From: Hysterium pulicare CBS 123377
Taxonomy: Eukaryota > Ascomycota > Dothideomycetes > Hysteriales > Hysteriaceae
NCBI GenBank assembly: GCA_000467715.1
Contig: AJFK01000385.1
Span: forward strand, 62,001-126,000
Length of the DNA stretch: 64,000 nt
Direction of reading: 5' to 3'
The notes under the pieces: model-generated
Databases searched by the model: none
Seen by the model: the letters and a program-made list of their open reading frames with translations, nothing else
What the model was told of the DNA's origin: nothing
Position numbers and translations under genes: made by a program
In this document: in pieces, positions 1-24,837 of the stretch
Layout of the letters: each line of letters begins with the position of its first letter
Numbering within the stretch: the first letter of the stretch is position 1

Positions 1-1242
1 TGGCCGTGTTGAACCGACACGGACCGTGAAGGTATTCTCACGCGCCAGCGTCGCCTGTCCTCTCAAACGCCACTCGCAACACACACCGCACGAGATTCGA
101 CTCGATGGCAGCGTCATCCGGGATAGAGGCAATGGATCCCCAATTTACATCGAATGCAACGATGCAGCACATGCCGCCGCCAAGGGTAAGCATGCACTTG
201 AGCATCCAAATGGCGGTCATTAACACGATTGCAGACGAGTTTTACAACGACACAGTTGCTAGAACGGATTCTCGAGATCCCTCGGATTCAGTTCAGGGTT
301 TATCGAGAATTGGCATACCCATTGGCAATCACACGCGTTACGAAGTCCGAGATGAGCTACACGGTTGAGGACCCTTTCGACGTTTACGACGTCGATACTG
401 ACCCCCGATTCTATTCTCACGAACCGGGAATTGTGCATCTTTTGCCGGACAACCTCCTCCCTGAAGATCGAGAGCCTTTGCTTTACTGAAACGCGTGTGA
501 CGATTTCGCCCGCTACTTCCAGAAAGTTGAAGCGGAATTGTTTGAAGGTATGTTGACCCAGCGCTGAGAGACCCCGAAGTCATCGTCTAACCAGATGAAA
601 GGCAGTCGACATATAAAATGTTACTGGGAGAAAGCTCCAGTGGTCCCGAAGAGAGTCCAAAAGTATAGCGACGATGACGAGGTACCTCGAATGATGCACT
701 CATTCATACGCATCACAGCCACAAACCTCCGCACCGGCCCTCCAAAATGGGAATGGATTTTCGATCCTACCGGAATACAATTTCGGTTCCCCGAGACATT
801 GGTATGGTCGACGACCTACAGATCGACGCGAATAGACTGGGACGCAGGGGAACTTTTCCCAGTCGACCAAAACGAGGAGCGACGGGAGTTAGAGGAAGTG
901 GGTGCATACGGCCATTACATCGATTCCATCTGGGAAATGGCTGCATGGGCCTTGAGGGAGTGGAAAATGTTTCTGGGTTGCCGCTTGCCCATTCTGATCA
1001 GACTCCCCGAGCCTGAGTACAGGATGCTATTGGAGGATTTGGAAGTGAGAACGAGATCATGGATCCAGGGATATTTAGACAGTTCTGGAACTTGTGTTTT
1101 CAAAGATGGAGTTCAGTTTAGTGGTCCCAGATGTCCGGTTCCTGTGTCAGTCTGGAATTCAAGCTGGGTGTGTACAGCGGAAAAGGCGTTTGGAAGGCTT
1201 CTCAATCGCCAAGGTTGCGTTATCTGGCGGCAAGATGCATAG
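1..1242 (+). pseudogene. MYND / Cys-His-Asp family, copy 1 (5' cut by window edge, one in-frame stop)
   Basis: The function is unknown. The frame entering from the left edge (about 2-185) resembles the MYND fingers of copies 4 and 5, but some metal ligands are lost. Codons 490-547 continue the family core with the conserved Cys at 496-498. A phase-1 intron is inferred at 548-601. The last exon (602-1242) has the conserved His (697-699) and Asp (763-765) in WIFDPTGIQF. An in-frame TGA at 487-489 interrupts the frame where copy 3 has Trp. The first intron, between the finger and the core, is unclear (donor 186; acceptor 262 gives the best frame). The frame matches paralogues on both sides of the TGA, so this is either a young pseudogene or a read-through gene. 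It sits head-to-tail with copies 2 and 3. Confidence 0.6.
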
Positions 1243-1978
1243 AAGTGTGCACTGCATAGAGGGTGTTTCCGGCGCTTTTGCTCTTTTGGCGTTGGTCAAT
1301 CAGATCAGTCTGCCTGCATGGAGCGTTGTTAATGTAGCACCTGTCCTCTAGTTGAAGTTCTCTGCCTATTATTTCTTCTGTAGATGTAGGCTCTTGATGT
1401 GGCTTCCGGCAAGCCAAACAATTATCCTAAAATGTGAACCAGCATGCCGCTTTCCTGTGCAACATAGCTGCGAGTTGGGAACAAGTTGGTAAGGAAGCAT
1501 GATAGAATGCTACCCCGCCAGATGGCAGGACTAAAGAAGCGTGCCTGAATGTAGCGGCCAAGTGTTTGAGGCTCGTGCGTGATGGTTTTCCTACTGCGAT
1601 GAACAACACACTCGTTAGATTTCAGTTTCAAACTCACCTATATATATTTAATAATTTGCTCGAACTTTCGTCTGGGGACCAAGCCCTTATGGCTCCAGCC
1701 CTTATGGCTCCCTGGACACGTAGATAGTTGCTTTTCCGCGCTGCTGCATTTCGTTCGTTTCGCACAACTGAGTAGGTACTACGCTAATGAGTGTGTAGGG
1801 CTTCATACCCAGGGTTCGAGCTAGCCTCCCCGCCTTTTTTTTGCATTTTTTGATTTTAATTTTTCTTATTGCTTTTCCTGTCAGGGAAATGGGGCTTGGG
1901 GGACACGACCACACTCAGCACAAACCACCAATCCTAGCGTCATAGACTCAGCAGTGACAACACACAACATCGGAGCCC
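1243..1978. other. Intergenic, no gene seen
   Basis: No convincing coding frame. It holds an A/T-rich stretch around 1637-1655, a 15-bp tandem duplication at 1682-1711 and T-rich tracts at about 1833-1870. Confidence 0.5.
1682..1711. repeat. Perfect 15-bp tandem duplication
   Basis: The unit AGCCCTTATGGCTCC occurs twice head-to-tail without mismatch. It lies in noncoding DNA between copies 1 and 2. Confidence 0.9.
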
Positions 1979-3040
1979 ATGGCGCGCATCATCTCCAGCA
2001 TGGTATGTAATGCACGCTCGATACTGTAGAGCATCTCTGACATGTCACAGCATTCGAAGCGGCCACCGCAGACCCCGCCGCGCCTCAGCGCTTCTCGAAT
2101 GGCGGATGTTAGGCGGCTGATGGCAGTCCCTTTCCTACTCCAAAGGCGATTGCGCGAGGCTACATTCCATCGGCCCTTTGCTAGTGTGGTCGAGGTCGAG
2201 ACAGACAGCAATGGATGCAAGATACTTGAATATACCCTGCGCAACATCCCAGCGGACCTTGGGTCGAGATTCCCTTTGCCACGCCGTATGCCTAGCGACA
2301 TCAAGGACGCCGTCTTAGGGTATATGCAGTGTGACAGCGCTGCATTCTTGCTATTCGAGATCGAGGACATTCTTCGGAAAGGTAGGCGTGTCCTCCTCGC
2401 TGGACATGGCAATTTCTGAATAAAGTCGACAGACAACCCCAACATCCAGTACGTTAGATGGCTGAGGGTACCCCCTCGTGCCAAACTGGTTCTGCAGCCG
2501 GCTGGTCAGCGAGAAAAATTGCCCTGGCATTCCGTCATTTTAATCAAATTAACGGATCGCACCAAGTGGGTGCTCGACATGACGAGAGCACAGTTCGGAT
2601 TTAAGTCATTTTTCATACCCCTCAAGCAATTTATCAAGGCGCGAGTGGCCGAAGGGTACAAACCGTACATCGTGGACCCCGAAGATCAAGATTCCATGGT
2701 AAAGAGGGATAACCCCGAATTTCATTCGTTTCGCCAGACGATGAGGAGCAGAGTCAGGAGATTGGTATCGAGATGGGTGCACTGGCTAGAGAGTCACGGA
2801 ATAACACTATCGAAGCTCGGGAACTTGTCAAGGAACTCCTTTGACTTTATCATGGCAAGGCTTCTTATGAAGGTTGAACCCATGCTAGAACCATGGATGA
2901 GGGACGTGCGGCGACAAGAGAGACGGCGAAGAAGGCTGAGAGAGGCTAAAGAAGCAAGAGACGCCATTATTGACAGGGCGGCTGGGTTGCTTTTTGATTC
3001 ATGGCAAGAAAGCGGTGTCTCCACGGACAACGCTTCTTAG
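1979..3040 (+). CDS. Cys-His-Asp family protein, copy 2 (no MYND finger)
   Basis: Proposed exons are 1979-2002, 2051-2381 and 2433-3040, giving 320 residues. Intron 1 (48 nt, GTATGT, CTGAC branch, CACAG) is phase 0. Intron 2 (51 nt) is phase 1 and sits where all other copies have one. The core has Cys102 (QCDSAAFLLF), His151 (WHSVILIKL) and Asp167 (KWVLDMTRAQFG). The His-Asp spacing of 16 matches copies 3 and 4. The C-terminal part is helical and very basic (RRQERRRRRLREAKEAR). There is no MYND finger; the first exon encodes only eight residues. If the first intron is not used, an ATG at 2042 gives an alternative start. No enzyme activity is established; the resemblance to transglutaminase-like triads is inference. 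Confidence 0.72.
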
Positions 3041-3480
3041 AGAGAAAGGAGGGATGAGGCACGGGATCCTGGCGGAGGTTAGAAGCATCAGGGTATCAAT
3101 CTTCAGGCGTTCATGTTCTTTTCCAGTTGGATACGCAGTCTATCCGGCTTCTGTGTACCGATCAAAAAGCTGAATGCATCTCTATGCAGCTGTACCAGTT
3201 GTTTCATGCTTCTTTCTTATTCAACGCGCCCTGGGCTATAATCTCCGTATGTAGCAGAAGATTAGATGTCAGAATAGAGGCTGTCGTGCCTCCATGTCCA
3301 TATCTCCTGTTTTCGCTGGAGGCTTTGACCATGTAGGCTTGCACGGGTGTCTGTGCTTGATGCTGTGGTTGACTTAGTTCGACCGACCCAGTCGGGTAAG
3401 GGGTGAATGCTAGCAGGGCGGTTTGCCTTAAAGAATTTCGCCCACCAAACCCAGCAGCCACACCATCCTCATCGTACGGT
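3041..3480. other. Intergenic between copies 2 and 3
   Basis: No supported gene. It presumably holds the 3' region of copy 2 and the promoter of copy 3. No sharp motif was seen. Confidence 0.4.
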
Positions 3481-4299
3481 ATGGCGACGACGCAGCCATC
3501 GAGTGCTTCCACAGCGGTAAGTCGCCAAAGGCATCAGTCGCGAAAACTTCTAAAAGTGTCGTAGGAAGAGATCCTTAGCCCGGAGATGGAACACGTCTTA
3601 CAACTGCTTTCCGTTCCCGTAGATCACTGGATACATGTCCAGAAGCGGACGTTGAGGTGGGACATAGCAGAAATCACCGCTTGGGAGAACTCTAACCCAT
3701 CGGGGGAGAGGCATTACGAGATCCATTGTTCTGGAAACCCACCCGATCGAGCCAAGTTAGAGGAGTTCCTTGACGGTCAGAGTGAAGATATGCAGAAAGC
3801 TGTTTTGACGTGGTCGAGCTGCGATCACGCCAATCTATATTTCTTCCGCATCTATTCGAAATTGCTCAAAGGTATGAGATTCAATGTAAGCGGTAGCGCA
3901 ATCTCTGACAAGATCATAGGCATGAAGCTAGCTCAAAAGCCCCTATGGCTGCACTTCACACCCCGGCCGCGGATCGTCCTGAAGATGGCTGACCAGGGCC
4001 GATTTAATGCCCCACTCTCGCATTCTGCAATCCTATTGACGATGGAGTCAGGAGAACAGTGGGTTTTCGATATCACTGGCAGTCAATTTGGATACCACAG
4101 AATCCTGATTCGCTATCCGGAGTACAAGGCAACGGCCATGAATATTGAGGAGCCTATCCGAGAGTCGACCTTGGACTACGAGCTCCGTAGGATCAAAGAA
4201 TCAACCAAGAAGCAGATAGAAAATGGAGGAACTACTCTTGAAGTTTGCACGCTCTTCCGACTCATCTACGAGGAGGCCGCATCAGCGTTCCACGATTGA
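3481..4299 (+). CDS. Cys-His-Asp family protein, copy 3 (shortened by an in-frame TGA)
   Basis: Exons 3481-3516, 3565-3871 and 3932-4299 give 236 residues. Intron 1 is 48 nt, phase 0, after a 12-codon first exon, as in copy 2. Intron 2 is 60 nt, phase 1, and has no stop in frame, so its retention would simply add 20 residues. The core has Cys98 (SSCDHANLYFF), His145 (SHSAILLTM) and Asp161 (QWVFDITGSQFG). The frame ends at TGA 4297-4299 but then stays open for 43 codons to TAG 4429-4431. The read-through part (VNTLEGRGITL) matches WVHWLESHGITL of copy 2, so the TGA replaces a Trp. This is a recent truncation, or a read-through product of about 280 residues. No MYND finger is present. Confidence 0.7.
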
Positions 4300-4431
4300 G
4301 TGAACACACTGGAGGGAAGGGGCATCACATTGCAGGACTCCGAGGCCATTACTCCGGAGGAGCTGAAGGTGTTAAAATCCCTGACGGACAGCAGGCTGGA
4401 AGTGCTGATCCCAAACCATGGGCAGGACTAG
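4300..4431 (+). other. Open continuation of copy 3 after its TGA
   Basis: In the same frame as copy 3 there are 43 sense codons, then TAG. They align to copy 2 downstream of its WVHW motif and contain ITPEELKVLKSL, an ordinary helical family tail. This shows the TGA is a recent change or is suppressed. Confidence 0.65.
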
Positions 4432-5151
4432 GTTAACATAAGTGACGAGAGGGTGTTCGGAGCAGCAAGCTCAAGTTAGTAGCAGTGCATCCAAGATTCC
4501 AAGTACGCTCAGGCACATCGGGAGATTTTGGTAGGAGGATCTCTTGAGTCTGGCGTTGTCTTCATTCCCATGACGCAGCTGTCATAATGATAGGACGACC
4601 TGCATGCGGGCGATTACATGTCTCTGTAGCTGTCTCGATGTCTCAAACCTAGATATATTCGAAGGCGTTCGGCGCATGCAAAGCCATCTTTGCTGCATTG
4701 CAGCCAAGGCTTTAGATGATTGTGCCTCATATGGACGATGTAGGTCGTGAAATACTACAGTGTACCAGTCGTAAAATCCCACCCATTGACGAATTCAATA
4801 AGGCCTCCAGATGTTGTGGCGGGGCCCAGAGTTTGTTCGCGTGGCCCAAGCTTGCTGAAGCAAACCTCAACACCAAACTCCAACATCGTGAACATCGCGC
4901 CTTAGGACTTTCGCAAGCCAACGTCGTCATCATCAACGTCCTATCAAAGGCTCTCACGAGAATGAATCGCTGTTGTCATCGGATTTAGGACTCCTGAAGG
5001 TTTCGAAATCGCATCGCATCCCCATGCTCGACAGAGGCGTCCGCGGTAGCGATTGAGATGCAGCTCGCTCTTGGATGGACTCCAGGGGTGCCCTGAATGG
5101 TCGCTGTTGCCTTTGGAGGACTGCAGATGACAATATAGGCGCTCGGAGTCC
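4432..5151. other. Intergenic, no gene seen
   Basis: Only short overlapping frames on both strands without family features. Nothing recognised. Confidence 0.4.
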
Positions 5152-5593
5152 TATTCGATGGCGACCTCGATGCCACTAAGGCCACGCTCGATTCACACGA
5201 CCCGCACTTCGCGACAACGAACAACATCAACGAAGGAATGATCCCGAAGCCCAGTACGCGAACCTTACAGGCTGTCGCAACACCCTCTGAGAGCCTGAGA
5301 TCACATTTCACGATGCACGACGAAGGGGAAAGTCCGCCTTCGGGTATCTACAGCCACCACTTCTAGAGAGCTTTCGGGGATGGAATCACACGCCGCACAT
5401 TCGATGAACTACCAGCGAACTTCGAAGACCCGGTGTCGAAATCATACGAAGTGTTAGCTTTAAACAGCGCTCGCCTCATTCTGTTCGATTGTGAGAAGGC
5501 GAAACATTGTCAGCTACACCAGCGACAGCTTCACGAACCCCGCAAGCCCACTCCCCGTCGCATTTTCTCAGAGGGATTGGAGCAAGCCGAGTA
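5152..5593 (+). pseudogene. Long degenerate coding frame, unrecognised
   Basis: One plus frame is open from about 5152 to 5593 except for a single TAG near 5365. It reads like real protein on both sides, for example PPSGIYSHHF before the stop and RAFGDGITRRTFDELPANF then SARLILFDCEKAKHCQ after it. No start codon context or intron was settled. I do not recognise the family. It could be a decayed host gene or a piece of a mobile element. The next 700 bases include further protein-like patches, so the gene may once have been longer. Confidence 0.35.
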
Positions 5594-6181
5594 ACGACCA
5601 TGATCGCGAGGACGAAAAGTTGGTGGCAGCAAGCTTCGCAGTCAAAAGCCTTCGTCGAACATATCGACGGCTGTCAATGACGTTATCAAGAAACTGCGGT
5701 GACCTTCTTGACCCAAGAACAACAACAACCGGAAGAGCGAAGATCCTTGACGCGTCGACAGTACGATACTGCAGCTCCTGGGATAATCTTCCGCTACTCT
5801 CTTCGATGATGTGCGCGAATGGCAACCGATTCCCATCGAGATTGCAGGACTTTTAGGAGCACAGCTTGAGTCCTCCGAACAGCGCTAACAAGCCTTGCGA
5901 ATTACAACAGACCCTCTCAAGAACGAACGACGACATTCGGCCATTGACAAGCAAGAGAAGGCACGCTTCTGTTGTGGGTGATGGGTTTGGTGCATCGGAG
6001 AGTGATGGATCTCAATCCACCTACGACTTCCAAGGCTCCATCGACGGCACCGAGGGTCAAGGGCACGGGAGATATCTGTTTGCTCAAGGGAAACACGATA
6101 GAAATAATCGCTTCACGAAGAATCTCTTCCTTTCGATATGCGGCAGAGATGCTGAGTAGCAAACTTCGAGCAACCACTCGC

Positions 6182-6385
6182 GATGCACCTTCACGAGACC
6201 AGGAGCTCGCATTGGGCCTCCCTATAGTGCAGTACATTAATCTAGCAGCAACTTCAGCCTCATCATCTTGACAGCGAAGGCTAATAGTTCGTACCGTGCA
6301 ACTGGTACTTCAACCACTTGAGATACACCTTCACGAGAACACGAGCTCGCAACAGGCACAACCACATCACAGTACATCAATCTAG
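6182..6385. repeat. Diverged direct repeat pair (about 65 bp)
   Basis: 6182-6247 and 6318-6385 share CACCTTCACGAGA, GAGCTCGCA and CAGTACAT-AATCTAGC in the same order and spacing, so one is a diverged copy of the other with a start-to-start distance of about 136 bp. Confidence 0.7.
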
Positions 6386-6474
6386 CTTTTCATGTCAGAC
6401 AGATCTTCTGGACATCAAAGACGAATGGGTCATACCGTACAAGAAGCACTTCCACAGTTGCATATCTTTCAATC

Positions 6475-6566
6475 AGGTCCAGGTCCAGGTCCAAAGGCCA
6501 GATCCAATCCAGGAGGTCCAGTTCCAGTTCCAGTTCCAGGTCCAGGTCCGGGTCCGGGTCCAGGAA
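6475..6566. repeat. (GTCCAG)n-type hexanucleotide microsatellite
   Basis: Imperfect hexamer repeat with variants GTCCAG, TTCCAG and GTCCGG, broken by about 20 irregular bases near 6494-6514. All frames translate as two-residue repeats, which makes short artificial ORFs here. Confidence 0.9.
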
Positions 6567-7078
6567 GGTCCTCCATGGGAAATCCAAGGAATCCAATTTG
6601 GCGGCTGCCATCTTCTTCCTCAACATCTCACACACACTTCATTTCCACCACCACTTCAACATCTTAACTTGCTATACAGCTCTTGACGTTCTCCCTTCTT
6701 TTTTTTTTGTGGGATCATGGCTGATTGAATGAAATGACAGATACGTTGAGTGACGCCACAACACTCGAATGACTGGATAGAGACCATAACGAGACCAAGA
6801 CTCAAGACGAACGAGAAGATACGAGAGAAAGGCGATACGAGACATAGAAGATTGCATGAGACCGAGACAGTATGAGAGAGAGCCGAGACGAGATCAAGAC
6901 GATTAGAAAGGAATGCGATGTCAAACATGCCATGGTATATCGAAACAAGAATGATGTAAAGGAATGATACGAAGAGGGGCATTGCCCATTCGAAAAGTCA
7001 AGACAGGTTAGCAGATGTGAGCGAGAGATGGAAACGATAAAGACGAGAACACATGCATGACGATACGAATACTTCGTA

Positions 7079-7640
7079 CTCCATCGGAGGCCGGATAAAG
7101 AGGCGTCAATACCGAAGGACATTGAAAAGAAACAGGATACATCGCGCTCTATGGAAGGCGGGATAAAAAGACGTGGACATCAAGGGACGATGACAAGAAT
7201 CAAGATACATCGCTCTTCATCGGAAGCGGGATGAAAAGGCATGGAGACCGAGGAACGATGACAAGAAGCAGGATACATCGCACTCCATCAGAGGCGGAAC
7301 GAAGAGGCATGGACAGAGGGGGACAAATCACGATGACAAAAGGCAAGATACGTCGCTCTCCATTGGAGGCGGAATAAAGAAACGTGAAAACAGAGATGAT
7401 ACATAAAGCAAGGTACATCGCTCTCCATCGGAGGTGGGACGAGGGAGTACGGAGATCGAGGGACGATGACAACAACCAAGCTACGTCGCACTCCATCGGA
7501 GGCGGGATGAAGAGACGTGGATATCGAGGAACCATGACAGGAGAACGTCGCGCTCCATCGGAGGCGGGATAAAGAGCCATTGATGCATCGGAAGATATCG
7601 AGAGGAATGATACATCGTGCTCCATTGGAGACGGGAAAGT
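7079..7640. repeat. Minisatellite, period about 61-75 bp, about nine units
   Basis: A core like CTCCATCGGAGGCGGGAT recurs near 7079, 7147, 7213, 7282, 7357, 7422, 7492, 7553 and 7619, each followed by AAGAG-rich DNA and often GACGATGACAA. One stray unit lies near 7990. Units differ by substitutions and small indels, so the array is old. Confidence 0.85.
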
Positions 7641-8293
7641 AAAAGGAGAGTGGACAACTGGAAGTATGAGATTACACCGCGATCCTTAGGACCTGGCTAA
7701 CGCATTGAGAAGGAAAGACCGACGGTTCCTACCTTCCCTAAACGGCCGAGCTCGACCACGCATATAAGCCCAAGCACTTAGCGGCCCAGCCTAATGGGAG
7801 ATGATATAGTACTCGCAAAACTATACAAGGAGCATGAAGGAACTACGACAAAGGATTGATACGAAGAGGGGCATGGCCCATTCGATAAGTTGAGAGACGT
7901 TTAAGACCTTGAGAGCATTTACTGACTTCACAACAAGGAAAGGAAATTATGGATCAAAACCGACACTAAGATCATGATACGCCGTTCTCCATCGGAGTGC
8001 GATTATCTTGAAGTTAGGAAAAGAGATCGAAGACTGATGGACACGAAACAGAGTTGAGAACACACCACGGTCTATAGGACTAGGCTAAAACATTGGACAG
8101 GAAAGACTCACGATATCCTACTTGACAAGACTAACCTCGATGACACGCGAGTTCTTACATGTTATAATCCACAACTGATCTATGATGGACCATCAAGACT
8201 CCGGTGCAACGGGCGACGTGTCTTTACTAACGCTAAGGAAAACAAGACACATAAACGGTTAAGGGGAGTGGCGATGGAAATGACTTTGCTCAA

Positions 8294-8905
8294 GAACTAT
8301 CACACAAAGACTTGCCCTATCCTATATGCTATGATAAAGAATTTTGCTAATTGAACGACAGCATAGAACTTTGAGGCGAAAATGACGTCGAAAATGACTG
8401 GTAAGCAACTATCGCGCAAAGACCTACCTTTCCTCTATGTTATTGCGAAAGACTTATGCTGACTGAAAGAACGCATAGGAAATTTAGAAGAGAATGAGTC
8501 TAGTAAGAAACTATCGCACAAAGACTTACCTTATCCTATATGCTAACTTATACTAATTGAACGACAGCATAGGGAATTTAGGAGAGAATGACGTTAGAAA
8601 TGAGTCTAGTAAGAAACTATCACACCAAGACTTACTTTCCTATATGTTATTACGAAAGACTTATGCTAACTGAAAGAACGTATAGAGATCCAGGGGGAGA
8701 ACGACTTTGACAATGACTCTAGTAAGAAACTATCGCGAAAACACATACCTTTCCTATACGTTACGATGAAAGACTTGTGCTAATTAGAAGATGGCATATG
8801 ATATCTAGTAGCCAAGGACGTTGCAAATGACTTCAGTAGGAAGCTATCGCGCAAGTACCTACCTTTCCCTATACGATGAAACGGAACGATTATGCTAATT
8901 CTTAG
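8294..8905. repeat. Minisatellite, period about 102-114 bp, six units
   Basis: Units begin with (A)ACTATCGCGCAAAGAC near 8294, 8406, 8508, 8613, 8727 and 8841, followed by CTTACCT-TCCTATA, then GACTTATGCTAA-TGAA, then GCATAG. The last unit is partial. Confidence 0.85.
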
Positions 8906-9204
8906 ATGACCAAGTCAAAAACCAAAGCATATCTCAGGGAGGTATTCAACCTTACCATCCATCGGACGGGCCTGGAAGGAAAAACGAAAGGAAAGTTTAG
9001 AACGGAGAGTTGAGATAATGTTAGGAGATGGATAGGTTGAACCGCATAGCGGAAACCGGTAAGAAGATGTTGACGACTCAAGGACTCTTGCTGACAGATA
9101 CGATAGAAAACAAGATGAGCACGAGGAATCAACTTACCTTGGAAGGTTAACCTACCGTTAGAAATCCTCCTAAGTCGATGTCCAAGTCGGCGCACTATGG
9201 CGAA

Positions 9205-9360
9205 TACTCCTCCGCTTACACCACAAGTTACGAATTCCGAATGTTCCTCCGTTTATACCAAAAGTTACGAAGTCGAATACTGCTCCGCTTACACTAGAAG
9301 TCCCCGAGTCCAACACTCCTCCGCCTACGCACCAAGTTCTCCTCCGCCTATACCATAAGA
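9205..9360. repeat. Short tandem repeat, period about 40-50 bp
   Basis: The motif CTCCTCCGCTTACACC or a close variant followed by AAGTTACGAA-TCGAA recurs four to five times with drift. Confidence 0.7.
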
Positions 9361-10209
9361 ACCATGGTTTAACACGGCCTAGCGGCGTCCAGCAATAGAG
9401 TGTGCTGATACAGAACCGATGGTGGCATTACTGTATGCCGAGAAGAGAAGAGGCCCGAGGGATGCTACATGCCTTCGTTGAATGCCGACGTTAAGAACGA
9501 TTGGACTCTCGCCGGGGGAAAGATATCATCCTCTATTCTATTACCCCCGAGAGACTCTTCCGCTTATGCCTTACAGGTCGAAGGTTCCGATCAGGAAAGG
9601 TACGAATAACGATAGGTTAAGATATCCAAGAGGTCCACTTGAAAAGATATCCTTACTTTTAACGTCTTCAGAGGCACGAAAAAGCTTCTCGGGCGTACCC
9701 CCTGAACAAGAATGCCGACTTCATATCATTATTGACTTGGGAGATGACGTTTGGAAAAGAGTACACGGGATGCCATGGGCACCCGGTGATATTCGACGGC
9801 AAGAAGAAGTACGAGGCTGCCGACCCATGAAATGTGGCAGACCAGCCGATGTCATCAATGCGAGATCGAAGGATGACTATGACGAAACATGATGAAAAAA
9901 TTGAAGAGATCCTAGTCCGAAGAGGAGTTGATGAAGAGCTATGAGAAAGAGATAGGAGATAGGACTATGCGAAAGAGCAATGGAAGGAATATGAAGACAG
10001 GTAAGAGACTGATCATACTATGAATATGAATACTGACTGATGAAATGAAGAGTCGGTTTTAAAAGGATGCGAAAATTTTCGAAAACCTCGGGATAACTTC
10101 GGCAGAATCTTGTCATCCATAGGATGCGGCATTGGATGGCTGAAATGAAAGAGACGGATTGAATAAGGAGATGAGTAGACTGTTGGCTGAGGAATGAAAC
10201 TATACTGAG

Positions 10210-10452
10210 AGAAAGAAGAAATTATACGGACCTGAAAGGAACTATACGGACCTACCTTCGCAAATGTTATAGGACTTACCGTTGACCGGACTATAGGACT
10301 TACCGTTGACCGAACTATAGGACTTACCATTGATCAAGCTATAGGACTTACCGTTGACCGGACTATAGAACCTACCGTTAAGGAAGTATATTAACCTACC
10401 GTCATGAAGCTATACTACCCACCGTTGAATGAAATACTAACTTACCGTTTCA
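10210..10452. repeat. 24-bp minisatellite, about ten units
   Basis: The unit TAGGACTTACCGTTGACCGG plus ACTA is near perfect in the centre and decays toward both ends. Because 24 is a multiple of three, the minus strand reads as an eight-residue repeat (SPIVRSTV), an artificial ORF. Confidence 0.9.
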
Positions 10453-10706: not shown

Positions 10707-12230
10707 CTAGTTGGCACTAACTTGTTCGACTTCGACGTTGTTGAAGCCCTTTACTTTTCCGAATTCGCTATGAGCGAACTCTTCCAAGCTGAGACCTTTG
10801 GTCTTCCGGATTATGAAGAAAGTACCGATGGCTATGAGAGCGTCGGCGAGGCCCCAGAAGAGGAATATTCTCCAGTCGAAGTTGGTAATCATGCAGGGGA
10901 TGGCGGTTGAGTAGACGAAGTTGAAGAGCCATTGGGATGATACTCCTCAGCGATACCGGTTCTCGAACATTAATAGGGAAGATCCTATGGCATGTTAGTA
11001 AGCCCCACTTCCATTCCTATCATCAGGCTCACATTGACTTCCTCAGATACGTATCGCCACGACAAAGGACCCCAGCTGAAGTTATATACAACGACGAACC
11101 GGTATATCATCGCAACAGTAGTGATGCCGCTCGATTGTGTGTTACCCTTCTTCAGTTCCGGCATATTCTTAACTATAGCTGCTGTTACGATCTGGAATAT
11201 TGTTATGGCCGCGGCATTCCATAGCAGAACCTGTCGATGGCCCACACGTTCCGAAAGAATGAAGATGAGGAAGCCGCACGCAGCAACCTTCGCCACACCG
11301 AATATGGCCGTCAACAAGATATCTTCATCGCCTGTCCCTACGAGCAGGGCGAAGTATTGCGGTCCGAAAATCGAAAGCCGTGGCGCCCCTGCTATGCGGA
11401 GATGTGAGGACGGCGAAGGCAAGGAATATTCGCTTGAAGTTCTCCCGTTCGAAGAGTTCTATGTGGTCCATCAGTAAACAGGTCAATGCTGTGCTCTGTC
11501 TCAGACGTACCTTTGACTTGACACCCTCCTGTTTCCCGCTCCTCTATTTCCACGCCGGTACGGATCTCAGCCATTTCACCAACGGTATCCTGGAACTCGC
11601 CTGCGCAAACCCATTTCAGAGTCTTCTAGGTTTCTTGGTGGCGACCCTTTTTTGCAACCATCGAGTGGACTCCTTGAGTGTGAATATGCCAAGGCCGAGG
11701 ATCGCCGTGGGAATGGGCTGCAGACCGATGAAGATTTGCCATTGCTCGGACTTGTGGTTGGAGATTCGTTTGTTGACTGCAAAGTCGACCTAACATGAGC
11801 AGAAGATTCGCTGTCAGTATCTATCTCTCAACCTTGCTGTGGCTATCCGCTGTTGCGGAGTTAAGCGGGGGTGACATGAGAGAGCGACTCACCAATCGTC
11901 AACAGCAACTGGAAGAAGGAGCAGAGTTGCTTGTGAGGGTCTTTCGGAGTCATCTCGCTGTTGAACTTTGGCACAGCTACCGAGGCCGATCCCAAACCAA
12001 TACCTGCTGCTGGCATAGCAGGCGTTCATGGAGTGGGTGTCGATTGTCTGGATCAGGGCGCCGATGCAGAAGGTCGCCGAAGACAGCACCAGCAACTTTG
12101 TCCGACCGAGTCTATCTATGACGGGCCTGACGATGAAGCAAGCTGCGAAGGCTCCGGCTTGCTGCAGGCTCACAGCTAGAGAGTTGACTCGTGCTGCATG
12201 GTTAGTAGAGCAAGCGGTCGTCGCCCACAA
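10707..12230 (-). pseudogene. MFS sugar/quinate-type transporter, decayed
   Basis: Membrane carrier of the major facilitator sugar-porter family, read on the minus strand in pieces. The N-terminal piece (11889-12230) has PVIDRLGRTKLLVL, the D-R-x-G-R loop of the family. Near 11960-11880 the neighbouring frame gives FNSEMTPK and SFFQLL, so the frame shifts there. An intron probably lies at about 11795-11890 (GTGAGT to TTAG). A middle piece has FIGLQPIPTAILGLGIF (about 11700-11760). Then come WGPLSWRYVSEEV (10985-11422) and a C-terminal RKTKGLSLEE (10707-10892), the usual end of sugar transporters. The order is correct, but at least one frameshift and several stops remain after allowing for introns, so I judge it inactive. 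The substrate cannot be told. Confidence 0.75.
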
Positions 12231-12259
12231 AGCTCTTCAGCGTGAAGACGACTGCTAGG

Positions 12260-14611: not shown

Positions 14612-14844
14612 TCAAAAACTCCGTCCCAAACGCACTACTCCACGGCATATCGACCTGCCACGGCGCCGTCGCATCCAGCATACTCGGCACATGATGCGTG
14701 ATCGCCAGAATCTGCCTCTCTGGCTCTGCGGCATGACTGACACCCACAAACCGCCTATTAGCCTCGACTTCGGATTTCAGCCATTGGATGTCGGAGGAGT
14801 GTGCCTTATGGAGAGCCGTTTCATTACGAGATTACGGAACGAGA
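14612..14844 (-). pseudogene. C-terminal fragment of a calcineurin-like metallophosphoesterase
   Basis: A minus-strand frame ending at TGA 14612-14614 reads SSDIQWLKSEVEANRRF, then PERQILAITHHVPSM, then a short WSSAFGTEF end. The W-L-x-x-x-V ... R-x-I-L-x-I-T-H-H-x-P pattern is the C-terminal part of fungal metallophosphoesterase-like proteins, where the paired His residues bind metal. The catalytic N-terminal part is not found upstream; the frame meets a stop about 75 codons back. I read it as an orphan remnant. It has no visible partner genes. Confidence 0.5.
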
Positions 14845-16175: not shown

Positions 16176-17247
16176 TTGGAACACTGTGAAACCCTCTGTC
16201 ATAACGTTCCAGATTGGGTTTTAATGATCAGCAAAATCCAGGATGCAGCGCTGAGACCGGTAGTGGCTCTTGAAATTCAACGGAACATCTGGACGGGGCA
16301 CCAAATACGCTCGCGGGGCCGTTCGTCTAGGCTTCCACGATGCGGCAGTATGGTCAACCTCAACTTCTTACGGAGGCGCTGACGGTAGCATCCTTCTCTC
16401 CGACGAAATGAGTCGCTCCGACAACAATGGTCTTTCGCCTGTCGCAGACCAGATGACTGCCTGGTACGGCAAATTTCACCAATACGGAGTGGGCATGGCC
16501 GATCTTATTCAGATGGGCGCCAACATTGCAACGGTCGTCTATCCACTTGGTCCGCGTCTCCGCTCCTTCATTGGTCGAAATGATAATTGACCAACAGGTC
16601 TCCTCCCGGACGTCAACGACTCCGCGGACAATTTGATCAATCTTTTCAAGGCCAAGACCATCGATACAACGGACGTGGTAGCTCTCCTAGGGGCGCACAC
16701 TACGATTCAGCACCATTTCGTCAACACCACTCGCGATGGAGATCATCAGGATTCCACGCCAGGAGAGTGGGACGTCGCATTCTACGGTCAAACGACGAAA
16801 AGCGTGCCACCACGGATCTTCAAGTTCCCAAGCGATGTCAAGCTATCTCAAGACTCCCAAACGAAACCTGATTGGACGAAGTCTACCGGAAATCAAGGGA
16901 GATGGAATGCGGTAAGCGCTGGCTTCCTCAAACTAACTTCCTAGTGTATAGGCTGACCTTTCGATTCCCAGGTACACTCGCAGGCATACACGAGACTCAG
17001 CTTACTCGGCGTGAATAATACAAACGATTTGAAGGAGTGTACCAAAGTTCTTCCGCCGGCGCGAACCTCGTTCGTGAGCCAGGATCAGGCTGTCTTGGAT
17101 CTGTGGTTGCAGGGTCAATTTGATCGGCTAAATAACTTTGTGGATGAGGCTCAGATGCTCACGGGGCTCACTGGGACTACTTGCGTTAATGGTTTTTTAT
17201 TAATAGTAGAAATGATTCCTGACTTCCTATCTCATAGTATCCATTAG
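16176..17247 (+). pseudogene. Class II haem peroxidase (AA2, lignin-peroxidase-like), interrupted
   Basis: The family oxidises aromatic substrates with hydrogen peroxide outside the cell. The frame from 16270 shows the distal haem pocket RLGFHDAAVW, the calcium-site region GGADGSILLS, then ADLIQMGANIATVVYPLGPR and, after 16600, the proximal-His segment VALLGAHTTIQHHFVN. The C-terminal exon follows a 60-nt intron at 16912-16971. An in-frame TGA at 16588-16590 splits the two halves where relatives continue straight into GLLPDVNDSAD. The N-terminal signal peptide exon is missing or in another frame (possible piece 16176-16270). The catalytic residues are intact in the readable parts. This is probably a recent pseudogene, although only one stop is certain. 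Confidence 0.75.
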
Positions 17248-17630
17248 ATATCTTGAAACGCTATAGAACGTTCCAGGAAGGAAACCCGCCCATGAGCCAT
17301 GGGACGAGCGCCAAGATCAACCAGGAACGATAAAAGCTTATTCAGATGTCCTGTATTCATATAGATAGAGAGAATATTAGTAGATCGAAGACGTTCATCT
17401 TTCCGATCCCTACCTGAACAGTATGCAAATCTGGTCTCCTTTTTCACAGGCCCCGGGTACACATTCGGAGTAGCCGTCCTTTTACACAAAACGAACGGCC
17501 TATGGGAACATAGATACATCTAGTTCCCATCTGTATCACTAGTTTCCATCCTACTACTCTTGATATTGTGATATGAGGCCGTAGGGAAAGTGTTTCAGGT
17601 TACAACTACTATATTTACAACTATAATCTA

Positions 17631-18743
17631 CTAGAAGTACTGTTCTACTGTATCCGCAAAAGCCTGCTCCAGCCACTCAAGCAGCGGTTCTATCACCGAC
17701 GCCAGCTCATCACTACTCATCATTTCCATTTGCTTGATCTTAACCTCGTCCTCCCCAAACCATTGCTCTAGCTCCGTCTCCAGGGTATCCGCCATGAAGT
17801 CATGCAGCTGCCTCTCATCGTATTCATCCTCCGCATTACTCAGCAGCCCTAACACCTCCGCGAACCCCTCATCAGTAGGCTCTTTTTCCGCTACACGCTG
17901 TTTCAGACCCTCTACTTCCTCCCTAGACTCTTGTAGGCGCTGGGGGTACATAGATCGGTGATTCCCTAGCGCCAAACGGGAAACTTCCACCTCTTTAACT
18001 ACATTATCTTCGAACTCGGGGAAAGGAGAAAGGGTTCGGAAGCCTATCTGTGGAGCGGTAGGATCCAGCACCCATTGTTCGCCGTTTTCGAGGGTGATGA
18101 CGAAGACATAGTGGCTCGTATGGTCGGAATTAGGAGATTCGGCGCAATTTGCAAACGTTATCTTTAGTTTGGGTCTCACGTGAAACTCGGCCTCTTCTAC
18201 TCTCTCGATGTATTCTATTTCCGGTTAGCTTTGACTATAAATGCTACGTATGAAGAGATCTATCTTACTCGCGAGCCTTCCGCTACAGACTTTCTTGACC
18301 ATAGCAGCCATGACCGCGATTGCCGTTTCACATTGCAGATGATTCACAATTGCCAGTAGATGTTCTGCTTCAATGCTCTCCGGAAACTCTCGCTTCACCC
18401 ATGGCTCCATCATGCTATCCCAATCCAGCTCAACTATGAGTTCGGTGCCATGCATGGCGCTTGCAACGGCTGGCCAGCGTGAGAATCTGCGGATGTAGGC
18501 GTGCCAGACTTTGTCGATGACGAAGCTCCAGCGTGAGAGTAGGATTCTGGCCCACCGGGTTTCACATTCTTCTTTATGTGCGGCGAGATTCGCTTGCTGG
18601 CAGTCGGGAGTGCAGTAGTAGGTGGGTTCTGTAGGTGAAGTGGAATCGTAGCTGGGTGCTTCGGAGCAGCTGCAAGCGGCTGTTGCGGGCTGACTGCAGA
18701 CGACGCAACGAGGGCTGACTTGTGAAGGTGACTCCGATGCCAT
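17631..18743 (-). CDS. MYND zinc-finger / Cys-His-Asp family protein, copy 4
   Basis: Two exons (18743-18269 and 18214-17631) with a 54-nt phase-1 intron give 352 residues. I start at the ATG at 18743 because it lies just before the finger; the frame is open further upstream. The MYND finger is complete: C13, C16, C24, C26, Y-C44, C48, H56, C60. MYND fingers bind proline-rich partner proteins. The core then has Cys138 (LQCETAIAV), His193 (SHYVFVITL) and Asp209 (QWVLDPTAPQIGF). The C-terminal part is acidic and helical. The Cys-His-Asp order and the W-V-L-D-P-T motif recall transglutaminase-like domains, which is inference. The gene is intact and is the best reference copy in the window. Confidence 0.85.
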
Positions 18744-19208
18744 TGTGATTGAAGGTGGTGATTTGGTCGGAGGTGGAGAGATGGACTTGGTTGAAAGCGT
18801 AGTGGGGAGACTGTGGTGTTGAGCGTAGGTGTTGTTGTGGTGGTGGTTCCCTAGGCTCCGACTGTCTACTCCTTTCATGCCCATGAGCTCACAATGGTGA
18901 TGCGTCTGCCCCCACCAAACATTATGCCAGCTGTCTTCACAGACAACCTGAACTCGGCGAAGCGCACACATCCACTCCGGCTCTTAGAAAATCTGAACAT
19001 CTGTACGGTTTCGTATGTTTGACCTGTCAGTTTGGTGAGGTGCGAAATGTTCCAGCATGTGGGCTCCCACATCGTAATTTGCACTTTGGATCGCATTACA
19101 AGGCCGTCCAGCGGTCATTGCCATGGCAGGAAATGCTTACGGCTCTTCAATTGGTCCACTAGCACCTACGCAAAGAGCTTGTAACCAAAGAATGGATTCG
19201 CTTCTGGG

Positions 19209-19800
19209 TCAGTTCGGCATACACCACCATCCTTTTCGGCCTTTGAGTCGGGCTGTGATATCTCGCGGATCTCCGCCTATATGCGGAGTAAAGGTATAGA
19301 CAAGCTGTGAGAACTCTTTATACTTAGCTTGATGAAGCCAGCTATGCATGTCTACACCGGAGAGATAAAGGTAACACGTCCCGGAGACTGTTTTCATGAC
19401 CACATGATAGGACAAGTCGTTATGTTCAGGCACTTCCCGTCCTGTTGTTGTCCCATGACGACGAAATTGCCTTGCAAGGGGGAGAGAGTGTACTCCGCCA
19501 TCTTCGAATCGAGGCCTGATGCATGGAGGATCAGCTGATCCATCTCCGCTGGGTTCATCAATTCTGGATAGTAAAATGGTTTTGACGGGAGTGGTTCCTT
19601 CTGGCCATCCATATTGACAGCGGGAACCATTCGTCAATATCCTGACATAATGCTTCATCTAGGACATGGCCATAAGAGTCGTACGTTTTGAGTTCTCGCG
19701 GTTTAGGTCCTCTATAACTCCTTTTTCATGGATCTGCATTCCCCGGACACGTATTGCTTGGATGGAAGCTTCCATGAGTCTTACTGACATACCTATATCT
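19209..19800 (-). pseudogene. Possible sixth, heavily decayed family member
   Basis: A minus-strand frame (19658-19209) contains SRCQYGWPEGTTPVKTIL, which lines up with SHYQYNWPNGTETLKSFL of copy 5 just after its catalytic-type Asp. The residues before it do not match well and the frame has a stop immediately upstream. The similarity is short and judged by eye, so this may be chance. Confidence 0.3.
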
Positions 19801-21750
19801 CAATTAGTAAGTTCTTTCTCAAGTATGAACGCAAAAGCCAGATGTTTAGTATCAAAGACCCTCATAGGAGCCAAATACTTTGCGAAGTTGTTGCCTTTTT
19901 TATACATCACGGCTCGCTCCTATCATAAGGTCATTCCTTTCGGCTGATGGGGTTCCGCCCATCAATCTATCGAGCCTTTTTGCTTATAGTCTTAACACGT
20001 TATCACTCTCATTGGAATCGTCGACCCAGGTGTTGCAAATCTTTCTGAGGTTGGTCAAAAACACTTGCTCCACAACGTTCCGAGCAAAAGAGTCATCTTT
20101 GGAGTAGTATATTGGCACACAGCAGACCGTACTGTAGTAATTGTTCTTGTAGGTGTTTCTTCTACATTGCCCAATCGCAGCTCGGAATATCTCTGTTATG
20201 GGTTCTTGGAGGCAGCTTCCTGGGAAAGATCTCGACAATGGACAGCATGAGAGGTCTTGCTTGGAACAACAGTCGATCTGACATAGATGAGACGATTCAG
20301 TCATGCTGCGTATGACCCGTTACTTGAATGACAGCTGATTGCTCTCTGAGCAGGGTGTTACCGATCTTGAGATCGCAGACACCGGACTAGGTGAGAGCCG
20401 AGTACGATAACGATAGCGTTCAGATCATCAAGCGAGGAAAATGGCTGGTGCCTTTACTGAGCAGATGATCCTTTTAATAATGCTGGGTTTCCTCAACGTA
20501 CCGTATGATCAGACATGGTAACAAACGCATGGGTAGGCAATCCATGTAAACATAAACCATGTTCTCACGGACCCTGGAGAATACCTGGACTATCAAAAAC
20601 TAATTTTCCGCCTCCCATCCGTAAGAGTATCCGTCAGGCATGATGAGGATTTAGAGCGCTGTGAGGCTGCTCGAGTGACTGGTCGCACTGAACCTGGACC
20701 CATTCAATTGGGTGTTGGATGGTTATCAAAAGGTACCAAACACAAGACAAGGTCTCGGATCATCTGGTTACTTCCATCAATTTCATGGAGCTCCCGGCAA
20801 ATTATCTGTGGTCAGCGGAATGCCAGATTTGCCAAAAGAGACTTCGCCAGCAATTGGACTATGAGCGATCGAATGCCGTCGGAATCGGAAGCGTGATCGT
20901 TGCGCACAGTCAGGACATGATACATGTTCATGAGGTGGACGGCTATGCTCAGAATCTCTATGCATTTCATTTTCTCCTTTCGCGAGTCCAGGATGGCTGC
21001 TTTCCGAAATCATTGGCTGCTACCCGTACGATCAACTATTGTAGATGAGGCGTGCGCATCGTCTTCGTGGCTGCTTCCACACGGTGGGTATGATATATCC
21101 TGCTGGAGTCATCGCATTTCTTTGGGGTTTGGACGTTATGGTACTTTCGTATCCTCGGCGGCTTTACGAAATCTGTTTCAAATAAGTTGAAAGAAGCATC
21201 CTTCGTATGGTTTCCAATTACCTTGCAGTACAAAAGTAAAGATAGGCTCTGCCGTATCACCGCTATAGCATAGCCCCTTCATAATGTCGCTGCGACCATC
21301 GCCAATCTTGGCAGGTAGTTGTTGGGAAGTGGAGTGTAGGTTGTATGCGAACTGTTCTGCATGAGTGAAGTTTGCTTTGAGCTGTTTGATTCTTTATGGG
21401 TAGGTGTACTTTTGTTTGGCGACATAACGCGCAGGATACCGAACATCTTCCAAAGCTAGGCATGCAATCTGGTACGTTGTTTTCTCCTGGCCTTGGTAAC
21501 AGTATCGGTTTGTTCACAAGGCCATTGCCATCATCCTGTTTCGAGCCAATATCTTCGAGCATGTCACCGAGGAGGAGGAAACTTAGCAGCGGCTTGCAGT
21601 GGACAGTCGCAGATTCAATGCGGTCGTGGATCTGGTATGGAAGTAGGAATTGAAGGACATTGCGAGAATGAAATGAATCGTACAGATGTCGGTTGATGCA
21701 ATTACTGCTGAGCCGGTCCAATAATAAGGTATAGGGTGCTGACTGGGATA
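19801..21750. other. No gene supported
   Basis: Frames of 60-194 codons occur on both strands (longest: minus 21847-21263) without recognised motifs. A protein-like minus stretch near 20110-19984 may be a remnant linked to the decayed family copy. Confidence 0.35.
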
Positions 21751-22291
21751 ATGGAAGCTGTTGCTGCTGCCGGCTTCGGCGAAGGCACAGCTCAAAATGT
21801 GCATCTAGCCGAAGCTCGCGGGCCGGAGATGAATGTTTCTTTTGCACAAGCGCCGCACGTCACAGCCCCTCCAGAGTCTGAAAGACGTCTATTAACCCCC
21901 CCTTCAATCTGAGGGCGTATACGAACCTGAGCATAACTGTGGAGGAAATACATGTTTACGAACAGTCTTGAACAGCCTCCGTCATTTTGCACAGTGGAGT
22001 GGTAAGATCTTGACATGTTTTTCTGCATGTACCAGAACGTTTCTGGCTGACATTTACAACCTAGATATCTACTACCTCACACCGACAAATCCATTCATCC
22101 CCTACGAGCAGATTCAGCGAAACCTTAACCCTTATTCTCTTTGCCTAGCGTAAGCTACCATCCTATTCAAGACACATTTGGCTTGTGGGCTGATTCATAG
22201 TTTTAGAATCGAATCCGTCATCGCTGAGCAGCCCAATCGAACCTACTCTACAAAAGGTTTCCGGATAAACGCAGCACTCGATCCTAAATAG
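21751..22291 (+). CDS. Candidate small spliced gene, unrecognised, with a frame break at a C7 run
   Basis: From ATG 21751 the frame reads MEAVAAAGFGEGTAQNVHL and onward in ordinary protein composition up to a run of seven C at about 21896-21902. Past it the next frame continues (SEGVYEPEHNCGGNTCL). Two introns then fit perfectly: 22002-22064 (phase 1, GTAAGA, CTGAC) and 22150-22206 (phase 2, GTAAGC, CTGAT), giving IYYLTPTNPFIPYEQ, then SVIAEQPNRTYSTK and a stop at 22289-22291. Correct phases at both junctions argue that the 3' half is real. The C7 break may be a frameshift mutation, a sequencing error, or a sign that the start lies elsewhere. I do not recognise the protein. Confidence 0.42.
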
Positions 22292-22327
22292 CTCAAACGA
22301 GAGCACCCTCTTCTATCTACGTCCACA

Positions 22328-22924
22328 ATGTCAAACGCGCTGACAACGCCAGCAGCCGTAGCTCCCGGTACGTCATTCAATGACCAGATTGACCTCCGAA
22401 AATTAACCTTCATGCTAGAAAAAGGCATACTGGTTCTTTACGGTAGCGGAGCATCGGTCCGCTTAATATCAGTATCCAACACCGTCTTGGCCACGACTGT
22501 CCCGGCCACCTACAATGCCTATATCAAAGCTGCAGTGCTACGCTACAACCTCCCCGCCGATATACTCGCCCCATATATTGTGGCCTGGATGAACAATGGT
22601 TTCTTCCGTCTCATAGAACCAATCAGAGAATATTCATTGAATCTTTTGACACTCATATACGGCGCCTCAAGGTCCTGGGGCATTGTGGGTTTCGAGAATG
22701 CGTGCTTGAACGAATTGGACCGTTTGCATCAAGGAGAACGACTGATTCCCGGACTCCTAGGACGGTCGGTAGCCTTTATGACTCTACAGAATGTACATGA
22801 TACCCATTATTTGCTACCGTACACGCGTCGCCTCGCCGCTGGGGATGTCGTTTCGAGACTTTGCGACTATCATAATCATCCTACTCCGGCTCACCGAGCA
22901 CAATGTCTGTCCCGTCATCTTTGA
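22328..22924 (+). CDS. Hypothetical protein, possibly BTB/POZ-like
   Basis: A single exon of 198 codons starts only 37 bases after the preceding gene, with a good context (CCACAATGTC). The sequence moves from ILVLYGSGASVRLISVSNTVL through YNLPADILAPYIVAWMNNGFF to LLTLIYGASRSWGIVGFENAC. A strand-like start, a short alpha/beta middle and a helix with L-L-x-L-Y-x-x-x...F-x-N-A are how fungal BTB-domain proteins usually end their domain, so a diverged BTB fold is a reasonable guess. Such proteins mediate dimerisation or recruit cullin-3. No other domain fits in this length. The C-terminal end may be truncated, because a second frame stays open across it to about 23000. Confidence 0.5.
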   Translation: MSNALTTPAAVAPGTSFNDQIDLRKLTFMLEKGILVLYGSGASVRLISVSNTVLATTVPATYNAYIKAAVLRYNLPADILAPYIVAWMNNGFFRLIEPIREYSLNLLTLIYGASRSWGIVGFENACLNELDRLHQGERLIPGLLGRSVAFMTLQNVHDTHYLLPYTRRLAAGDVVSRLCDYHNHPTPAHRAQCLSRHL

Positions 22925-23612
22925 AGGCTGGGCAACTGCATCAACTATGATGAGCTGGATATCACAGAGAAGGGTGGAGGTTATTTCCAATGTATTATAG
23001 AGCATAATGAAGACTCTTAACTCTTACTATTATCCTCTCCGTGACGCAAACGAGATTTCATCTCTCTCCCAAAGCACGATCGTACAGCGTCTACGTCCCC
23101 TTTTCCAAAATGCTTCCTCTCCCCACTCATCCATAATCCAATATCCTAATCCTAAATCCCGCAGTGTTGTTCAAAAATCGAGATCTATAGCTATAGAGAG
23201 TAGCTGGACTAGAATAGCGTGCTCTAACTTAATTAGTGGAAGATAAAGCCTATTTCTATGGTATCTGATAGCTGAAGTATCTTCCTAGCATTCCTTATTC
23301 ATGCTGTCCGTGATGTCTACGCCTTTTTGTACCGTTCCCATTGACGAATGGTATAGATCATCCGGATGGATTACCAGCAGGCTTTTGGGGGATCATTCCT
23401 GTTATTTCAAGGGTATCCATCTAGCAACTATAAAGCACATAAGAGGGCTAATTAATAGAGCCCTCTATCTTAAAGGAAAGTCTATCTCTTTTCTATTCTA
23501 TTAGATAATAGAGCTCGTGCTCTATGATCCTACGCCAAAGTCACACTGATGGGAACTTGATTTGGTTCATATCTCACAACACAACTAATCACTGTATTCC
23601 TATCTAATGCCA
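22925..23612. other. Intergenic, A/T-rich, no gene seen
   Basis: Contains A/T-rich patches with repeated CTATAG/TCTATC words (23180-23520). This is the 3' side of both neighbouring genes. Confidence 0.4.
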
Positions 23613-24837
23613 CTATGCCTCCCTCTCCAACGCCGCCTTAAACTCATTATACGCGGCATAATCCTCCATCTTCCTCCTACTCTCCAGGTATTCGGACGGG
23701 TCCCCATACCCATCAATCTCATCCTGCAACTCCTCCACAATGCTCCTCGCCCTCTCCAAGAAGTCTTCAACCCTCTGTACAAAGCCCGAATGGGCTTCGT
23801 TAAACAACAGTTCAGTCAGATCTGCCTCGGTGAAGGTCTCGGAGAATGCTTGAAAGATGTGCGCCATCATTCTATCCCTAGCCAAATAGTGGGGCCTCCT
23901 ATCCTCCAAACCAGCTTCCTCGGACTCGTCCTCGTCATGGGGCACCAGCCAGTTCAAAATACGGTTATGGGAGTCGAAGAGCTTGCCTAGCGGCCGGATT
24001 TGTTTAGGGATGCCAAGGGCTTTACTCTCAAGGAAGGATTTGAGGGTCTCGGTGCCGTTAGGCCAGTTGTATTGGTAGTGAGAGCTGTCCAGCACGACGG
24101 TCCACTCCTGAGTGTTCTCTAGGGTATCCGTATGGAGCGGTTGGATTAGAATGACGACGTGGTCGGGAATTTCATCGTTCCTTCCTTTGTCTGGGTCGAT
24201 TTCTATGGTGCGTTTCAGGGGTTTGGCGGCGAGGAAGGCTTCGGAGAGGGTTACGGGCATATCTAAAATACCATGAGTTTACTATGTGTGAATGATCAGG
24301 GGACTGTAAGTACATACCCTTTGTTAGGAATGCAACCAGGGGACTCGTGATAGCGGCCGCTGTGATGCATGTATTCAGGCACTTAGCAGCCAGCGCCAAC
24401 TCCCCACTCGTCTCTTCCGGGATCTCGTATTTTTGGTCCGGAGGGAATGAAGAATCGGCTAAATATACGAGAACTTCCGTCTCCGTCTCCTCAATCTTGT
24501 AGACTAATCTCGTGTAGATAGCCTCCAGCATGACGAGGAAGATCTTTTCAGCGATATGTCCGATCCGGAAGAGGGCGCGGAGAAGGTTCAGTTTGTCACA
24601 CAGGGGCTTATGAGATTGTAGATCTGCCTCCTGGTGCTCTTTGCTACAGTAGTCTACCGGATATGTATATGGATGTAGGTCTGCATTGCCATCGAGCATT
24701 CTGGGCGGGATTTCGGAGCATCGAAGGCAGGAGATAGTAGCAGGAAGGCCGCAGTCTTTCAGCTGGCATTTTCGGGGAGAGGAAGCATCCATTGCTTGGA
24801 GATTGATAGAGGAGAGATCCGTCAATAATGAGTCCAT
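23613..24837 (-). CDS. MYND zinc-finger / Cys-His-Asp family protein, copy 5
   Basis: Two exons (24837-24318 and 24262-23613) with a 55-nt phase-1 intron give 389 residues. The MYND finger is C24, C29, C37, C40, Y-C64, H68 in place of Cys, H76 and C80. The core has Cys157 (NTCITAAAI), His208 (DHVVILIQP) and Asp232 (WTVVLDSSHYQYNW). The His-Asp loop is eight residues longer than in copies 2-4. The tail is acidic and helical. An in-frame Met at codon 16 is an alternative start closer to the finger. The gene is intact, on the same strand as copy 4 and opposite to copies 1-3. The role is unknown; protein-protein contact through the MYND finger plus a possible cysteine-enzyme core is inference. 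Confidence 0.85.

Follow-up and report, generated by a model that had tools for sequence, protein, structure and literature searches.

A cluster of divergent paralogues

The DNA analysed here, called the window below, is a 64,000-nt stretch of contig AJFK01000385.1 from the fungus Hysterium pulicare CBS 123377. It contains five paralogous genes, named copies 1 to 5, whose shared domain bears a Cys-His-Asp series and probably adopts a divergent transglutaminase-like fold; two of the five also encode a MYND-like zinc finger. The set of copies was drawn from the window alone, and their gene models were built by hand from genomic DNA.

Copies 2 and 3 are on the forward strand. Copy 2 (320 amino acids (aa), 1979-3040) comprises exons 1979-2002, 2051-2381 and 2433-3040, and copy 3 (240 aa, 3481-4299) exons 3481-3516, 3565-3871 and 3920-4299; a short 5' exon followed by a 48-nt intron fits each of them. 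Copies 4 (352 aa, 17631-18743) and 5 (389 aa, 23613-24837) are on the reverse strand, with introns at 18268-18215 and 24317-24263, respectively. For copy 4 we discarded a 33-nt intron in favour of the 54-nt one, which has a better donor and branch site. In all four genes a GT..AG intron, in phase 1 by exon lengths, stands directly after the helix bearing the Cys (51, 48, 54 and 55 nt in copies 2, 3, 4 and 5). Copy 1, on the forward strand at 238-1242, is a disrupted paralogue: it survives in pieces at about 238-486, 490-546 and 595-1242, is broken by an in-frame TGA at 487-489 and by frame breaks, and has a poorly defined 5' part near the window edge.

Paralogy was assessed by tblastn within the window, where the best direction gave expect values (E) of 1e-10 between copies 2 and 3, 6e-7 between copies 3 and 4, and 5e-9 between copies 4 and 5. 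Identity to copy 3 is 20 to 24% across whole proteins and 22 to 32% in the core, and the cluster is therefore not a recent expansion. Apart from a relic open reading frame (ORF) on the reverse strand at 19209-19658, tblastn of the window revealed no additional copy at E below 0.1. The start of the relic resembles copy 5 around and after the Asp (score 59, equalled by 0 of 300 shuffles), with an Asn in the Asp column, and it has no recognisable Cys or His part. A wider relation between the relic and copy 5, upstream of the Asp, was rejected because 252 of 300 shuffles scored as well.

An invariant Cys-His-Asp series

A first-pass annotation of this DNA had aligned the copies by eye and proposed that Cys, His and Asp follow one another in all five, as in the core of transglutaminases and papain-type enzymes. 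The alignment proved good. The residues of copy 2 (C102 at 2330-2332, H151 at 2528-2530, D167 at 2576-2578; numbered with the short 5' exon), copy 4 (C138 at 18332-18330, H193 at 18113-18111, D209 at 18065-18063) and copy 5 (C157 at 24369-24367, H208 at 24161-24159, D232 at 24089-24087) are exactly those it had named. In copy 3, C98 (3820-3822) is recovered when the short 5' exon is included, but the other two residues are H149 (4021-4023) and D165 (4069-4071), not H145 and D161, presumably because another intron boundary had been used. The three codons of copy 1 are present on the forward strand (Cys TGT at 496-498, His CAC at 697-699, Asp GAT at 763-765). The series thus holds for the four intact copies, but the fifth is disrupted, and its last exon matches copy 4 at E 0.48 in tblastn of the window, which is not significant by itself.

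When copies 2 to 5 are aligned as four rows, the core columns without any variation hold A, C, A, P, H, W, V, D and Q. The Cys-His spacing is 49, 51, 55 and 51 residues in copies 2, 3, 4 and 5, and the His-Asp spacing 16, 16, 16 and 24. In transglutaminase-like proteins these spacings range roughly from 35 to 60 and from 14 to 24; order and spacing in copies 2 to 5 fit this range for the superfamily of PF01841 type.

As a control on invariance, four random members of a family were aligned 200 times, and an invariant C..H..D with 30 to 65 and 12 to 26 residues between was sought. Members were taken from pools of 36 transglutaminases (mean pairwise identity 0.27, compared with 0.24 among the copies), 25 Nudix, 25 GNAT and 12 C39 sequences. 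The invariant triad appeared in 84/200 transglutaminase samples and in 0/200 for each of Nudix, GNAT and C39; after shuffling and realigning the rows of the copies themselves, it appeared in 0/500. C39 enzymes also have a catalytic Cys and His. Since this papain-like family gave none, the control is a detector of transglutaminase spacing and does not recognise every papain relative.

Comparison with profiles of known families

The profile of the copies was compared by hhalign with yardstick profiles, which were made from matches in bacterial genomes (the one for PF00877 from only 4 sequences). In local mode, P was 0.002 for transglutaminase, 0.016 for C39, 0.061 for NlpC/P60, 0.3 for Nudix and 0.37 for GNAT, and the reversed query gave 0.43 or more for each of these five families. 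When the query columns were shuffled 200 times, the real local score was matched by no shuffle for PF01841 (transglutaminase; real score 21.4, higher than every query shuffle tried), by 1 for PF13369 (Transglut_core2), by 2 for PF13529 (C39) and by 4 for PF00877 (NlpC/P60). The corresponding numbers for three decoys were 35 (PF00293, Nudix), 77 (PF00583, GNAT) and 190 (PF03061, 4HBT). In local mode only, the core is closer by profile to transglutaminase-like and papain-like families than to the three unrelated ones.

The signal comes from the His-to-Asp half of the core. This half alone scores 20.6 against transglutaminase, with 0/200 shuffles as good, and its invariant Pro, His, Trp and Asp, together with a Thr, align with their transglutaminase counterparts under a permissive display setting. 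In the best alignment of the Cys half, the Cys falls on the transglutaminase Cys. The core is like PF01841 in the order of Cys, His and Asp and the distances between them, and its Pro, His, W and D-x-T align with those of that family; it is unlike PF01841 in the Q-[FIY]-[GN] that follows the Asp, in the phase-1 intron after the Cys helix and in the MYND finger of two copies. With Transglut_core2 it shares a 49-column profile alignment in which the His and the D-x-T region are in register, but the hhalign probability there is only 1.5%. No more than a lead is a match, at E 0.01, between PF15645, a Pfam model of papain-like fold, and a consensus of the copies whose letters were partly hand-chosen; it does not reach the cut-off of that model.

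Predicted structure

For copy 3, AlphaFold2 was given the translation of 3586-4296, with the intron read through, and six rows from the window. The best model reached a mean pLDDT (predicted local distance difference test) of 62 and a pTM (predicted template modelling score) of 0.65; the mean pLDDT of the other four was 44 to 53. In the model's own numbering, Cys79 opens a helix (79-94), His146 opens a strand (146-153) and Asp162 lies just past a strand (158-161). In papain-like triads the Cys usually begins a helix and the His a strand, and the Asp closes the strand that comes next; in this modest model the three residues would occupy the corresponding places.

A Foldseek search of this model ranked human NTAQ1, the N-terminal glutamine amidohydrolase, first, at a level that is not significant. 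Among the 50 rows listed, 15 were NTAQ1 (including 3c9q, which we take to be this protein), 11 gelsolin and 5 JOS clippases. NTAQ1 is not known to have a MYND finger. The triad of NTAQ1 (PF09764) is described as Cys28/His81/Asp97, common to transglutaminases, in an enzyme that deamidates N-terminal glutamine (PMC4214742). Its spacings of 53 and 16 compare with 49 to 55 and 16 in copies 2 to 4; on the other side, the fold match is at E 0.23, and no PF09764 match of the copies was listed up to E 10. Foldseek against viral models gave nothing significant.

Arguments against the fold assignment

Several results weigh against a transglutaminase-like fold, and some of them would suit a rival reading in which the conserved positions are a coincidence in an unrelated alpha/beta domain, for example with a structural or zinc-binding role, the likeness being a short W-x-x-D-x-T match. 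The confident local alignment covers about 15 columns around the Asp. In the alignment of the His-to-Asp half, per-column confidence is low before the Trp, including at the His, and the Cys half taken by itself gives no significant score (119/200 shuffles as good). In global mode nothing stood out, with P of 0.4 for transglutaminase, 0.65 for C39, 0.53 for NlpC/P60, 0.64 for Nudix and, lowest of all, 0.21 for GNAT; the profile-profile check that the first-pass annotation had called for is therefore positive in local mode, where no query shuffle matched transglutaminase, and empty in global mode. When the transglutaminase columns were shuffled instead, 1/200 was as good, the top shuffle reaching 24.2 against a real score of 19.4. 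Shuffled queries scored up to 19.0 against Nudix, more than the real C39, PF13369 and NlpC/P60 scores (16 to 17.5), and for this reason the latter are not remarkable across families. Throughout, hhalign gives low probabilities, none above 16%, and only four independent rows, copies 2 to 5, enter the alignment.

Sequence searches point the same way. In none of Pfam, NCBIfam and the PDB sequences did a transglutaminase or papain-type match reach the cut-off. In Pfam no match to PF01841 or its sister families was listed up to E 10, with copies 1 and 2 represented by their last exon, HMMER filters dropping most matches above E of about 0.1 and thereby limiting such negatives. PDB sequences returned nothing relevant (the best hit, at E 0.0082, was a release factor), and searches of PHROGs and NCBIfam gave nothing useful. 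By the Pfam cut-off the shared domain fails membership of PF01841, and it should not be listed as a member. On the structural side, a second prediction, for a fragment of copy 4, failed (pLDDT 42, pTM 0.40), and Foldseek of the copy 3 model against the PDB gave no match at E of 0.001 or lower. The first-ranked NTAQ1 match has E 0.23, a TM of 0.25 and an rmsd (root-mean-square deviation) of 14 A; the NTAQ1 rows represent one protein, and gelsolin fills 11 of the 50 rows.

Coincidence would nevertheless have to account for a His-to-Asp half that no shuffle in 200 equalled and whose His, Trp, Asp and Thr line up with those of transglutaminase, for four papain-superfamily families that beat most shuffles where three decoys do not, and for the invariance control, which separated transglutaminases from Nudix, GNAT and C39. 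We consider it quite unlikely. Our preferred reading, which we hold to be probable from sequence comparison and one predicted model, gives the shared domain a divergent transglutaminase-like fold, within the papain superfamily, with a Cys-His-Asp triad. The structural guess of the first-pass annotation is accordingly favoured: local profiles, the invariance control and one modest model speak for it, but it lacks a match over a cut-off, a signal in global mode and a second successful model.

Enzyme or scaffold

A transglutaminase-like fold need not be catalytic, and the domain could about as well be inactive as be an active enzyme. If it is active, the His would activate the thiol of the Cys, with the Asp orienting the His, and the thiol would attack a carboxamide or peptide carbonyl to give a thioester acyl-enzyme. 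Release of the thioester could occur by water, amounting to deamidation, amidohydrolysis or proteolysis, or by an amine, amounting to transamidation. We weakly prefer an amidohydrolase or deamidase to a protease or a transamidase, by analogy, because the best fold match is NTAQ1 and its spacing is similar. The enzyme would act inside the cell, given that no N-terminus of the copies resembles a signal peptide by eye.

Alternatively, the fold may serve for binding or as a scaffold, with its triad kept for structure and the proteins being adaptors of MYND type. A relative, Rad4, is not known to be catalytic. A classification of papain-like proteinases from 2023 (PMC10318531) describes it as closely related to Transglut_core and places it in excision repair. 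Within the window, two further points favour this reading: copy 5 has D-S-S and a longer His-Asp spacing than the other copies (24 compared with 16), and the relic has Asn at the Asp column. Retention of three residues of catalytic type in four intact copies that are only 20 to 24% identical to copy 3 argues the other way, and we regard a pure scaffold as unlikely.

The MYND finger

The first-pass annotation had described the whole group as a MYND family. This holds for copies 4 and 5, in which the zinc-ligand pattern, including C-x3-[CH]-x7-H-x3-C, is present (aa 13-60 and 24-80, respectively), but not for copies 2 and 3, which lack the pattern, nor for copy 1, where none was recognised by eye. 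Even in the two positive copies the likeness to the MYND finger PF01753 stays under the 22.7-bit cut-off (20.5 to 21.8 bits in copy 4, 21 to 22.4 bits in copy 5). Because the pattern occurs in copies 4 and 5 yet not in copies 2 and 3, the finger is optional, and what the copies have in common is the enzyme-like domain.

In the proposed scheme, the finger of copies 4 and 5 would dock the enzyme on partner proteins. Outside the SET-MYND group, most MYND proteins of fungi are still unexplained. If the C-terminal domain is a transglutaminase-like enzyme, they gain a testable chemistry, and the papain superfamily gains a family. A MYND adaptor joined to a cysteine acyl-transfer enzyme is a pairing that we have not met in the literature searched: no MYND protein with a transglutaminase-like domain was among the matches listed (titles and abstract starts of open-licence papers), and 'MYND' is absent from the main text of the 2023 classification (PMC10318531). 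In PMC10512319 the word occurs as the name of an author.

The cluster, with its divergent paralogues, a disrupted copy, a relic and a MYND finger missing from some copies, might also belong to fungal allorecognition or a similar fast-turnover conflict system, with the enzyme as effector; this is compatible with a transglutaminase-like fold. A precedent is HET-Va (SET plus MYND), described as an allorecognition gene in Podospora anserina (PMC9262711), but nothing links it to the present domain, and it is a precedent for MYND in conflict only. Ordinary turnover of a gene family explains the cluster equally well, and no NLR or HET domain was seen in the ten other window ORFs scanned, no fuller search having been made. 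A role in conflict seems improbable. Also improbable as a whole is a scheme in which MYND delivers the transglutaminase-like domain, as deamidase, amidohydrolase or transamidase, to chosen partners, in an intracellular fungal family with birth-death turnover as in allorecognition or immunity.

Wider searches

No relative was found for part of copy 4 in viral contigs or for copy 3 in genome contigs. The profile of the copies matched 25 of 199 genomes of the phylum of G003 at E of 1 or lower (best 0.008). We read 17 of the 20 loci fetched, leaving out three with a cut flank, and rejected these matches as relatives, as by eye they are chance or antisense; one locus resembles a trehalose synthase and another (L043) a C39 peptidase.

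A 124-aa ORF at the end of a viral contig (L024:1-375) contains a C..H..W-V-L-D-G-T-A-R-Q-F-G series with fitting Cys and His distances. It had been picked by this motif, from viral contigs only; no relative was found in phage and plasmid collections, and viral contigs returned the ORF itself only. We do not count it as evidence. Weak matches to it in 8 of 299 genomes of the phylum of G006 (E 0.0017 to 0.009) were rejected, being by eye unrelated, two of them Nudix-like.

Other features of the window

The intron-bearing genes of the window include those for the mitochondrial ribosomal protein Mrp51, an AIM3/BBC1 homologue and an RPAP2/Rtr1 protein; taken with the intron sizes, they suggest a filamentous ascomycete. 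The AIM3/BBC1 homologue (41783-43672, reverse strand) ends in a C-terminal cysteine proteinase-fold domain, PF25459 (E 8.6e-72). This domain is, like that of the copies, fungal, and papain-like by the name that Pfam gives it, but the copies have no PF25459 among their own Pfam matches. An ORF with SH3 (43782-45701, reverse strand) adjoins the homologue, and both may be one gene of BBC1 type.

Tandem repeats resembling minisatellites, whose periods are 68, 114, 36 and 24, occupy 7069-7576 and 8581-10448 in the stretch that separates copy 3 from copy 4. Two ORFs within 10988-12230 (reverse strand) match parts of a sugar transporter (PF00083), which is either split by introns or decayed, and two adjoining ORFs at 16270-16941 (forward strand) match successive parts of a haem peroxidase (PF00141) and are probably exons of one gene. 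Finally, a 604-aa open frame at 25977-27791 (reverse strand) is very rich in serine, has a repeat with a 51-nt period and looks like a wall or surface protein.

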